From the NCBI GenBank assembly GCA_002315335.1, contig DCGW01000032.1:1-29592 (forward strand): a stretch of DNA of 29,592 nt, given 5' to 3'. The position numbers were made by a program, and so were the translations under genes. Below are positions 13,961 through 25,646 of the stretch, in pieces. The DNA comes from Firmicutes bacterium UBA1768. GTDB lineage: Bacteria > Bacillota > Clostridia > Peptostreptococcales > Anaerovoracaceae. Position 1 is the first letter of the stretch, and every line of letters starts with the position of its first letter. The notes under the pieces are model-generated. The model was given only the letters and a program-made list of their open reading frames with translations. It ran no database searches and was not told the origin of the DNA.

Positions 13961-15055
13961 TTAAATAGCAATGCTGAACTGGTTCAACCCGTCCTTATAG
14001 GCGTGCTCAATTTGTGTCGCACTTCCCTTGATAATCTTTATTGACATATCGTCTTCAGGCTTTTCTGTAAGAGGATTGTACTCATCGCCGTTGCAGGTGA
14101 TCAGCATATTTAACGTGTTTTCGGTTGCGCTATAGTTTAGGCTTACACCGATTTCTATTGGATCGGCCTTTGCATCAGGAAGCAGACAGTTCATGCATAA
14201 TTCTTCGGCTATGAGTGAAGCTCTGTTTATTCTGTTCTTTTCTACATTGTTTGAAATTCCGAACACTATGATGCCGTTGTTGAGCGTCATGAGCTCGAAG
14301 TCTGAGTCCTTTGCCTTGTAGCTGTACAGCTTGCTGTTGCTGAGGAAGGCCTTGGTCTTAGGCTTCTGAGGATTTGTGAAAATCTGCTCAGATGGGCCCT
14401 CTTCGTATATTCTGCCTTCATCCATAAAGAAGGTTCTATTGGAAATTTCTCTTGCAAATCGCATTTCATGAGTTACTATCATCATGGTCATGCCGTTGTT
14501 GGCGAGCTTTCTGATTACATTCATTACCTCGCCGACCATCATTGGGTCGAGCGCTGAGGTTGGCTCGTCTAAGAGAAGAATCTCAGGATCCATGGCGAGA
14601 GCTCTGGCGATGGCAACACGCTGCTTCTGACCACCCGAAAGCTCATCCGGATAGCTGTAGGCCTTGTTGCTGAGACCAACCTCATCTAAGAGCTTCATGG
14701 CTTTGTCAAAGGCTTCCTTTTTGGATAAACCGAGGAGCTTAACAGGAGCCTTCATTATGTTCTCAACAACCATCAGGTGTGGGAAGAGGTTAAAGGACTG
14801 GAAAACCATGCCCATTTTCTGGCAGATTTTTGCCTTTTCAACATCCTTTGAAAGAATGTTGACTCCGTTCATCCATATTTCACCCTCAGTAACGGTTTCA
14901 AGAAAATTTATGCATCTGATGAGTGTACTTTTTCCTGTTCCGGAAGGTCCGATTACGGCAATAACATCGCCCTTTTCTATGGTGGTATCTATTCCTGCCA
15001 GTACTTCTAAGTCACCGAAGCTTTTTTTCAAGCCCTTTATTTCAATTAAACTCAT
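13961..15055 (-). CDS. polar amino acid-type ABC transporter ATPase with an extra C-terminal GHKL/RsbW-like domain
   Basis: The protein has 364 residues. Residues 1-242 form a GlnQ/HisP-type ATPase: Walker A GPSGTGKST (36-44), Q-loop Q86, signature LSGGQ (139-143), Walker B ILLLDEP (159-165) and switch His196. The usual protein ends near 245. Here about 110 extra residues (253-364) contain AEELCMN (283-289), like the N-box of anti-sigma/GHKL ATPases, then ITCNGDEYNP in the place of the D-x-G box, and a closing helix and strand IEHAYKDGLNQFSI. The Gly-rich lid box is missing, so ATP binding there is doubtful. The start codon overlaps the permease-fusion stop (ATGA), showing one operon. Assignment of the tail is by eye. 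Confidence 0.85.
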   Translation of the reverse strand: MSLIEIKGLKKSFGDLEVLAGIDTTIEKGDVIAVIGPSGTGKSTLIRCINFLETVTEGEIWMNGVNILSKDVEKAKICQKMGMVFQSFNLFPHLMVVENIMKAPVKLLGLSKKEAFDKAMKLLDEVGLSNKAYSYPDELSGGQKQRVAIARALAMDPEILLLDEPTSALDPMMVGEVMNVIRKLANNGMTMMIVTHEMRFAREISNRTFFMDEGRIYEEGPSEQIFTNPQKPKTKAFLSNSKLYSYKAKDSDFELMTLNNGIIVFGISNNVEKNRINRASLIAEELCMNCLLPDAKADPIEIGVSLNYSATENTLNMLITCNGDEYNPLTEKPEDDMSIKIIKGSATQIEHAYKDGLNQFSIAI

Positions 15056-24128: not shown

Positions 24129-25646
24129 TTAGTCAAGCTTTACCTCGCGGTTTCTGCGTTTTCTTTCGCCGCTCTTTTCAACCCATCGGAGACTCAGAGT
24201 GACTATCCAGATAATTATAAAGTAAATTGCAGCGACAATCAGGAGCGGAATAAATGCATCAAAGGTTCGGCTTCTGATAATATCTCCGGCCTTTGTTAAG
24301 TCCTGAATTGCAACGTAGCCGGCGATTGCTGTAGCCTTTATCATGCTTGTAAAGCTTGCCCTGTATATAGGCAGAATATTTCTCAGAAGCTGAGGCAGAA
24401 TTATTGTTCTGAAGCCTAAAGCACCCGGGAAACCGAGGGCTGAAACTGCCTCATACTGGCCGGAGTCTACGTTGTTAAGACCGTTTTCTATTGCGCCGCA
24501 TACATCGTTTCCGAAAACCAAACCGAAGGCAATCATACCGATAATTACGCCGCTTACGTCAACCTTTCCGAGGATTACGTAACAGACAATCATGAGTATA
24601 ACAACCATTGGGATGCCTTCAATTATTGCGCTGTAGACATTTTTTATTCCCCTGAGAACTTTGAAACGACTACGGTTCATCATGCATAGGATTATTCCGA
24701 GCAGAGTGCCGAAAAGTGCTGTTGCAAGAGTAAGGGCAACTGTCATTCCGAGACCGTTTAATATCATCTTGTAACGAGCTTCCTTTACGAGGTTGTCGTA
24801 AAGGCCTTCTTTAATATCTGTGAAGATAGAACCTGATCCACCCTCAAGCGAAGCGGTGTCTCTCACCATGAAGGTCTGGTTTTGAATAACATAAGGGTCG
24901 GTAAAGTCTACCGATTTTTTTCTTTCTTCTGTTATTGAAAGGTCAGAAGCGATAATATCAATTTTTCCCGCAGTGAGAGCCGGAATAGTTGCGCCAAAGG
25001 CCATTATTTCGTATCTGACCTGATAGCCTAAGTCATAAAGGATATTTCCAATGATTTCAACGTCTATTCCGACAAGCTTTCCGTCTGAAATGAAGTTGTG
25101 AGGTTCCATTTCGCCTGTTGTACCGACCACCAGGGTTTCGCCTGTTGTGTTAACAGGAACCTCTTCTATCACATAGTGGTTGCAGTCCTCCCAGTGTGAA
25201 ACTATTTCGTCGAGTTTACCGTTCTCTTTGTATTCGGCCAGCTTTTGGTTTATTTCGGTGCGCAGCTTGTCGTTGCCCTTCTGCACTGCGAATCCAAGAT
25301 CTGCAGGAATAAAGGTAATGTCCAATAATTTGAGCCCATCGAATTTCTGAGTGTAGAGCCTCAAAAATCTTTCTGCTCCTGCGAAGTAGTCGATTTTTTT
25401 GGAGTTAAGAGCCTCAAGTGTATCAGCCATGTTGTTGTATTGAAGCATTTCTGCGTCAGGGTACTCAGATTCCAAGAAAAGCGAGGTGGTGCTGCCTAAA
25501 AGACAGCCTATTCTTCCTGTTTGTGCTTTTTCTACAGTATATTCCTCTTCTTCATCGCTGCCGCATGAAGTCAGGAAGAGTGAAGAAAGCAGTATCAGAA
25601 CCATTAAAACAGCAAAAAGTTTAGTTTTTTCGGATTGATTTTTCAT
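24129..25646 (-). CDS. lipoprotein binding-domain/permease fusion with lobe order 2-1, without its own ATPase (505 residues)
   Basis: Lipobox LTSC (C28). Lobe-2-like segment 41-152 (GSTTSLFLESEYPDAEML, then DTLEALNSKKIDYF and GFAVQKG), lobe-1-like segment 168-262 (LVVGTTGEMEPHNF, ITEER with R242, DFTDPY), then a permease from about 285 with its EAA loop at YEAVSALGFPGALGF. The permease DNA is nearly identical to that of the 739-residue fusion, while the binding segments differ strongly. No ATPase gene follows; the end reads REVKLD instead of overlapping an ATG, so it probably uses an ATPase made elsewhere, such as the one at 13961. The ribosome site is GAGAGGAAA. Confidence 0.85.
   Translation of the reverse strand: MKNQSEKTKLFAVLMVLILLSSLFLTSCGSDEEEEYTVEKAQTGRIGCLLGSTTSLFLESEYPDAEMLQYNNMADTLEALNSKKIDYFAGAERFLRLYTQKFDGLKLLDITFIPADLGFAVQKGNDKLRTEINQKLAEYKENGKLDEIVSHWEDCNHYVIEEVPVNTTGETLVVGTTGEMEPHNFISDGKLVGIDVEIIGNILYDLGYQVRYEIMAFGATIPALTAGKIDIIASDLSITEERKKSVDFTDPYVIQNQTFMVRDTASLEGGSGSIFTDIKEGLYDNLVKEARYKMILNGLGMTVALTLATALFGTLLGIILCMMNRSRFKVLRGIKNVYSAIIEGIPMVVILMIVCYVILGKVDVSGVIIGMIAFGLVFGNDVCGAIENGLNNVDSGQYEAVSALGFPGALGFRTIILPQLLRNILPIYRASFTSMIKATAIAGYVAIQDLTKAGDIIRSRTFDAFIPLLIVAAIYFIIIWIVTLSLRWVEKSGERKRRNREVKLD
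24219..24311. repeat. 93-bp exact direct repeat, copy 2 (permease 3' part)
   Basis: Identical to 15139-15231. Flanking similarity continues for several hundred bases into the permease gene. Confidence 0.9.

Follow-up and report, generated by a model that had tools for sequence, protein, structure and literature searches.

In the genome of Firmicutes bacterium UBA1768, three genes encode fusions of solute-binding lobes to an ATP-binding cassette (ABC) permease in which the two lobes follow one another in reversed order. The genes lie on contig DCGW01000032.1 (assembly GCA_002315335.1), within the 29,592-nucleotide stretch analysed here, referred to as a whole as the window. We conclude that each segment made up of lobe 2 (L2) followed by lobe 1 (L1) is most probably a single, circularly permuted binding domain of the amino-acid type (SBP_bac_3), cut in its first hinge, and that the reversed order very probably reflects a true circular permutation.

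The three proteins, of 739, 515 and 505 amino acids in the list of open reading frames (ORFs), each bear a lipobox and match both SBP_bac_3 and BPD_transp_1 in Pfam. Their SBP_bac_3 (PF00497) scores of 201, 105.7 and 111.7 bits are over the curated cut-off of 26.4, and the permease part (TM or TMD below) is of the GlnP type (BPD_transp_1/HEQRo_perm_3TM), over the HEQRo_perm_3TM cut-off. The features are listed with residues and basis in brackets, HMM being a half-domain hidden Markov model and model an AlphaFold2 model.

15052..17271, minus strand: 739-residue permease fusion, lipobox-L2a-L1a-L2b-L1b-TMD (ORF, Pfam, half-domain HMMs, model)
17188..17199, minus strand: its lipobox LTSC, Cys28 (read off the sequence)
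16795..17139, minus strand: lobe 2 and C-terminal helices, unit a (residues 45-159; HMM, model)
16462..16737, minus strand: lobe 1, unit a (residues 179-270, being HMM 179-260 plus the hinge strand of the model; HMM, Pfam SBP_bac_3, model)
16102..16446, minus strand: lobe 2 and C-terminal helices, unit b (residues 276-390, being HMM 279-390, extended to 276 by the first helix in the model; HMM, model)
15772..16044, minus strand: lobe 1, unit b (residues 410-500, being HMM 410-491 plus the hinge strand; HMM, model)
15094..15720, minus strand: permease domain (residues 518-726; BPD_transp_1, HMM)
20137..21684, plus strand: 515-residue permease fusion, lipobox-L2-L1-TMD (ORF, Pfam, phmmer against PDB, HMMs, model)
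20209..20220, plus strand: its lipobox LTSC, Cys28 (read off the sequence)
20296..20637, plus strand: lobe 2 and C-terminal helices (residues 54-167; phmmer against PDB, HMM)
20692..20967, plus strand: lobe 1 with hinge strand (residues 186-277; phmmer against PDB, HMM, model)
21013..21642, plus strand: permease domain (residues 293-502; Pfam, HMM, fold comparison)
24129..25646, minus strand: 505-residue permease fusion, lipobox-L2-L1-TMD, with no ATPase gene beside it (ORF, Pfam, HMM)
25563..25574, minus strand: its lipobox LTSC, Cys28 (read off the sequence)
25191..25526, minus strand: lobe 2 and C-terminal helices (residues 41-152; HMM)
24861..25136, minus strand: lobe 1 (residues 171-262; Pfam, HMM)
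24174..24800, minus strand: permease domain (residues 283-491; Pfam, HMM)

Two pieces of the 515-residue protein are homologous, in swapped order, to one and the same standard protein, the ancestral binding protein AncQR (phmmer against PDB). Residues 49-167 match AncQR 108-230, which comprises lobe 2 and the C-terminal helices that close lobe 1 (i-Evalue 2.1e-08), and residues 186-270 match AncQR 11-96, which is lobe 1 (9.3e-16). The half-domain HMMs read the 515- and 505-residue proteins as L2-L1-TM and the 739-residue protein as L2-L1-L2-L1-TM, so that the three proteins hold four L2-L1 units, two of them in the longest, and conventional 1-2 order occurs in none. The original prediction, made from the sequence alone, that lobe 2 follows the lipobox and lobe 1 adjoins the permease in all three proteins is thus borne out. 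As a control, the same HMMs were applied to loci of related genomes, where all 14 of the two-lobe ORFs came out as L1-L2; one of these is cut by the locus edge and another is a 654-residue ORF of another kind. One further ORF in those loci has L2 only, and their single permuted relative (locus L112) is L2-L1-TM. That the N-terminal segment is an unrelated fold is ruled out by the match to the PDB and by the model of the 515-residue protein.

The same arrangement extends through a large family. A protein search scored 7997 candidates, of which 1444 had E<=0.001, and architectures were read on the 120 listed: 110 are L2-L1-L2-L1-TM, five are L2-L1-TM, and five have an L1 ahead of L2-L1-L2-L1-TM, this leading L1 starting from residue 1-22 in four and being just a 19-residue piece in the other. 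L1 adjoins the permease in all 120. A contig scan gave at least 579 confirmed stretches, of which the best 80 loci were picked by permease motifs, so that architectures are unevenly sampled. Their ORFs comprise 31 with one L2-L1 unit ahead of the permease, 30 with two, 15 with three and five with four, together with 16 stand-alone L2-L1 ORFs, two ORFs that start with L1 and are truncated at the end of a contig, and two that have one lobe each. Proteins with one to four 2-1 units before the permease, for which the original prediction had proposed a profile search, form a family that occurs in records of many phyla.

Spacer lengths indicate which lobes belong together. Among the homologues, the distance from L2 to the following L1 is nearly constant (18-23 residues, sd, the standard deviation, 1.0, n=235), and that from L1 to the next L2 varies (18-65 residues, sd 6.1, n=120). 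Since stand-alone L2-L1 ORFs exist, one lobe pair evidently suffices as a unit. The original prediction had left open a circular permutation or an exchange of lobes between neighbouring proteins; the nearly constant L2-L1 spacer, the stand-alone ORFs and the structural models favour the former, and the latter is rejected as unsupported in view of the spacer lengths and stand-alone ORFs.

In the AlphaFold2 model of the 739-residue protein, the pairs L2a with L1a (45..274) and L2b with L1b (280..503) can each be superposed as a single bilobed domain, and the models of both the 515- and 739-residue proteins place the spacer, some 20 residues long, inside a single chain with high confidence. Each L2 is paired with the L1 that follows it, and the models contain neither a standard 1-2 domain nor an unrelated N-terminal fold, the two outcomes that would have told against the original prediction. 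It is these predicted models that support the folding of the permuted unit as one domain. The lists from fold comparison were filled by permeases and pseudo-symmetric matches, so the absence of any given family from them carries no meaning.

Several observations weigh against this interpretation. The half-domain HMMs were built from the same 120 homologues that they read. The spacer argument is not absolute, because with these HMMs the within-domain gap from L1 to L2 spans 16-50 residues in the 14 conventional-order ORFs. The superposition on OpuAC, the best whole-domain match of the 739-residue model, is loose (5.1 Å), and standard proteins fit the same range through the pseudo-symmetry of the lobes (GlnPQ SBD1: 168 residues aligned, 3.4 Å). 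For the 739-residue protein one can also propose a shifted register, in which the middle lobes L1a and L2b fold together as a standard binding domain, leaving the outer two, L2a and L1b, to pair with each other. Its L1a-L2b spacer is of conventional length, at 18 residues (11 of the 14 conventional ORFs have 16-24), Pfam SBP_bac_3 covers residues 179-391 in one pass, and the model may be biased, since proteins whose L1-L2 spacers are longer predominate in the alignment behind it. In the model, however, the in-order pair L1a-L2b lies 10.5-15.4 Å root-mean-square deviation from standard binding proteins, compared with 1.4-1.7 Å for the single lobes; the L1-L2 spacer ranges up to 65 residues among homologues; and such a shift is impossible in the one-unit and stand-alone proteins. 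We consider it improbable, with the qualification that the unit register of the 739-residue protein is read from the model and by analogy with the family.

A second alternative accepts the lobe assignment but pairs the lobes in trans, lobe 2 of one chain closing on lobe 1 of its partner in a homodimer. The permease would be expected to be homodimeric, as type I importers generally are, and swapped elements are reported for permuted constructs of ribose-binding protein (PMC10601554). Against this, the confidently predicted spacer would join the lobes within one chain, and stand-alone units occur; the trans arrangement thus seems very improbable.

A stand-alone permuted unit matched 288 distinct PDB sequences. 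Among the 60 listed, no solved structure is already in the permuted order, and the best-matching stretch is lobe 1 only, except in the tandem GlnPQ structure 6h30. Here residues 23-255 of the unit align in one stretch to 96-325, because that stretch spans lobe 2 of one GlnPQ domain and lobe 1 of the next. The alignment across this junction may illustrate the usual route to a permutation, by duplication and trimming.

For the permuted domain we propose the following path of the chain. It would begin at hinge 1, pass through lobe 2 and cross back through hinge 2 into lobe 1, entering first its C-terminal helices, from which the spacer of about 20 residues would lead to the first strand of that lobe. 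The binding part would then end in the free hinge-1 strand, followed by a short loop, a helix and the first transmembrane helix (TM1) of the GlnP-type permease. In the model of the 515-residue protein residue 277 is the last of the lobe-1 hinge strand, the helix spans 285-299 and TM1 starts at 302. At the other end, the N-terminus on the lobe-2 side would be held by the lipid anchor. With the anchored N-terminus entering lobe 2 and lobe 1 leading into TM1, each lobe would thus be tied to the membrane separately. Two fusion chains and two ATPases would make up a homodimeric type I importer, in which the permuted domain would shut like a flytrap on a carboxylate ligand gripped by the lobe-1 arginine. 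Because each lobe has its own tether, closure would be transmitted to TM1 more directly than in GlnP, whose whole domain hangs on one linker, and could, as a hypothesis, pull on TM1.

Two residues of the ligand site were compared, a carboxylate-binding arginine in lobe 1 and an amino-binding aspartate in lobe 2, roles that we take over from HisJ and LAO. The arginine, said in the original prediction to be kept, is present in all four lobe-1 units of the window and in 433 of 434 L1 hits, the remaining one being a partial hit. The aspartate, which the prediction had found not to be obvious, is replaced in all four units, by Q and Y in the 739-residue protein, Q in the 515-residue protein and A in the 505-residue protein; of 425 L2 hits, 184 retain it and 241 lack it. 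In both counts the proteins of the window and of its own genome were entered more than once, under several identifiers. Paralogues in that genome keep the aspartate on contigs C73, C38 and C49 and have lost it on C62, C52 and C42. Amino-acid binding is therefore not assured, a further point on the negative side, and the ligand of the window transporters may be a carboxylate, perhaps not an alpha-amino acid.

The missing aspartate also speaks for the view that the permuted domains are vestigial, or purely sensory and without a part in substrate delivery, as do the RsbW-like tail of the ATPases and the partner-switching genes beside relatives, described below. This view we regard as rather unlikely, given that the arginine is retained almost throughout, that the units have been retained and multiplied, up to four per protein, and that the permease domains pass their family cut-off.

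ABC ATPases are encoded next to two of the fusions.

13961..15055, minus strand: ABC ATPase overlapping the 3' end of the 739-residue gene (ORF, Pfam, NCBIfam)
13973..14296, minus strand: its RsbW-like GHKL tail (residues 254-361; below Pfam cut-off; RsbW-grown HMM, i-Evalue 1.7e-18; hhalign)
21681..22778, plus strand: ABC ATPase overlapping the 3' end of the 515-residue gene (ORF, Pfam, NCBIfam)
22443..22766, plus strand: its RsbW-like GHKL tail (residues 255-362; below Pfam cut-off; RsbW-grown HMM, 3.6e-17; hhalign)

A tail of 120-139 residues follows the ABC domain in 61 of the 62 permuted permeases that have a complete ATPase adjoining or in frame, loci that are not independent (three are from Sporomusa, for example); for 33 more permuted entries, which include overlapping copies of a single gene, a complete ATPase was not in reach. 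The exception, to be set on the negative side, is the ATPase on contig C73 (L145:7574-8491), which lies beside two permuted permeases and has a 70-residue tail with no GHKL match. In the comparison set of 14 permeases without fused lobes, the tail measures 3-10 residues in 13 of 13 from relatives, and the unfused permease on contig C13 (L012) of the own genome has an ATPase with a 122-residue tail. The 61 tails and that of C13 make 62, of which 59 were aligned.

HATPase_c_2 matches 44 of the 59 tails at E<=0.1 (best 8.5e-09), the two window tails scoring 14.7 and 16.9 bits, under the Pfam cut-off of 27.4. The HMM used for the window tails had as its seed an RsbW encoded as a stand-alone protein in a related locus, and had absorbed other ATPase tails; a cleaner test, the 59 tails against 12 stand-alone RsbW-like proteins, gave an hhalign probability of 98.8 and an E of 4e-17. 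A profile search of the PDB with the tails found nothing at E<=1. In the N-box, the two glutamates are kept in 57 and 59 of the 59 tails and the asparagine in four, including the two window tails as printed. The column of the lid arginine is gapped in all 59 and the aspartate of the DxG motif is mostly replaced, so the ATP site, judged by N-box asparagine, DxG aspartate and GGLG lid, is not intact. The tail looks like a degenerate, pseudokinase-like RsbW-type GHKL domain, which may still bind a partner.

Genes of partner-switching systems lie close to many of these transporters. The 80 same-strand ORFs within 250 bases of transporter genes include matches to STAS (20), SpoIIE (15), dCache_1 (13), HAMP (12) and HATPase_c_2 (3). 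Over whole loci, searched with HMMs grown from one seed each, 27 of the best 80 have STAS, 21 have SpoIIE, 32 have either and 16 have both; four of the genes (in L019, L047, L066 and L078) are on the opposite strand. By a rough estimate, the four STAS matches in the 1.53 Mb of the own genome would correspond to about two such genes for every 80 stretches of 9 kb. That 32 of 80 loci have genes of these kinds suggests partner-switching control, although the HMM search found no STAS or SpoIIE gene in the window itself, which must be set on the other side. Since the ATPase tail appears to be a degenerate RsbW-type domain, transport, or a signal from transport, may be coupled to the partner switching of STAS proteins. 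Among the papers listed by our literature search, which included one on a stressosome (PMC9237108), we saw no report linking ABC import to partner-switching regulation.

Several individual loci may be recorded here. A dCache-HAMP-SpoIIE phosphatase (L024:1210-3159) and a STAS gene (L024:7327-7659) lie beside permuted transporters, with similar arrangements in other loci. On one strand of contig C91 of the own genome (L141:7-3926), a weak stand-alone permuted binding ORF and a SpoIIE-GHKL fusion are accompanied by a STAS gene, with one other ORF ahead of the latter, and contig C71 (L142:3110-4282) encodes a protein of 391 residues that matches STAS at its N-terminus. The permuted permease of the closest named relative has upstream of it a gene (L013:2613-3929) whose product combines STAS with an APH-type phosphotransferase domain. 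Contig C49 (L007) has a single 916-residue frame that joins a permuted binding domain, permease, ABC ATPase and GHKL-like tail, and a 953-residue ORF in L059 resembles it.

Record titles place permuted loci in Bacillota/Firmicutes, several groups of Pseudomonadota, Geobacteraceae, Desulfobacteraceae, Bacteroidetes, Chlorobiaceae, Ignavibacteriaceae, Acidobacteria, Aminicenantes, Verrucomicrobiales, Nitrospira, Hydrogenedentes, Gemmatimonadota, Anaerolinea and Kuenenia. Many records are metagenome bins; those not so marked include Sporomusa ovata, Trichlorobacter thiogenes, Methylobacter tundripaludum and Nitrosomonas communis. The window's own genome (1.53 Mb, 90.65% complete) has 19 SBP_bac_3 matches, and every one of them belongs to one of 11 ORFs, namely ten permuted permease fusions and the weak stand-alone L2-L1 ORF on C91; the ORF on C42 has an extra 11.6-bit L1 hit within its L2. 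Of the 20 related genomes searched, one (G003) showed a permuted fusion; in others, lobe-1 and lobe-2 pieces stand in the usual order in separate binding proteins. In a tree of the TMDs of 95 permuted and 15 unfused permeases, the 14 conventional ones split from the rest, and the fifteenth, that of C13, groups with the permuted ones. A single origin of the permuted permeases is only suggested, because support for the split is weak (0.59).

Some further genes of the window may also be mentioned. A 383-residue lipoprotein-like ORF (22771-23922, plus strand) directly follows the second ATPase and has no Pfam or NCBIfam match at E<=0.001. At 28088-29437 (plus strand) lies a Peptidase M29-like protein with an apparent lipobox, which adjoins a Peripla_BP_4 lipoprotein (26916-28043; Pfam).

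How do these proteins compare with known systems? Importers of the GlnPQ type have tandem binding domains fused ahead of the permease. The window proteins resemble GlnPQ (PDB 6h30, 4kr5) in having one or more SBP_bac_3-type domains per chain, fused N-terminally to a GlnP-type permease. They differ in that the lobe order is 2-1 rather than 1-2, in that the hinge-1 end of lobe 1 enters the membrane, and in the GHKL-like tail of the ATPase. In ionotropic glutamate receptors the membrane part comes after lobe 1 at hinge 1, and the break point between lobe 1 and the membrane part is the same; there, in contrast, the lobes are separated by the inserted membrane segment, which makes a channel where the window proteins have an ABC permease. 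Pfam PF10613 hits the last part of lobe 1, just over its cut-off in the 739-residue protein (E 4e-07) and below it in the 505- and 515-residue proteins (8.8e-06 and 5.9e-04). The ATPase tail shares its fold family with the RsbW/SpoIIAB anti-sigma kinases (HATPase_c_2), from which it differs in its fusion to an ABC ATPase and in its degenerate N-box, DxG motif and lid.

Permuted binding proteins have precedents in other families. OpuAC (PDB 2b4l), the whole-domain match mentioned above, is itself probably a permuted protein; it belongs to a separate family (PF04069, betaine). The PF04069 profile scores 24.9 bits against a cut-off of 21.2 on the 739-residue protein, at residues 435-501 only and with no stretch passing alone, and the 515- and 505-residue proteins have no match at E<=0.001. 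A CPSARST study reports circular-permutation relationships among glycine-betaine-binding proteins including OpuAC (a type II binding protein), molybdate-binding proteins and CysB, in a description that does not single out the permuted member (PMC2395249). The binding domain of Lactococcus lactis OpuA is likewise fused to its permease (PMC2861598). TpMglB-2 (Tp0684), a glucose-binding protein for which its authors proposed the term 'Type Ic', is also a natural circular permutation of a tethered bilobed protein; it has a Type I sugar fold in which strands are permuted inside one lobe, and it is a separate lipoprotein (PMC4990184). For the amino-acid (SBP_bac_3) family, a literature search, weak on subscription journals, found no report of permutation or reversed lobes among the papers listed.

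A wider proposal can be put forward tentatively, and on present evidence it is doubtful: that these proteins make up a widespread, undescribed class of ABC 'transceptors', with circularly permuted flytraps that enter the membrane by their hinge-1 strand, in the manner of ionotropic glutamate receptors, whose closure on a ligand acts mechanically on TM1, and whose ATPases carry a lid-less pseudo-RsbW that ties transport to partner switching by STAS proteins and SpoIIE phosphatases.

Finally, these results bear on how the family is understood and annotated. Importers of the amino-acid type whose chains hold one to four units form a large family in which the reversed lobe order is fixed, and annotation by Pfam name conceals both this reversal and the RsbW-like tail. 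The separate membrane tie predicted for each lobe would make the mechanical coupling between ligand closure and permease testable. The RsbW-like tail, and the STAS and phosphatase genes that neighbour many of these transporters, point to a possible link between ABC import and partner switching, which makes the system of more interest than the permutation would by itself.

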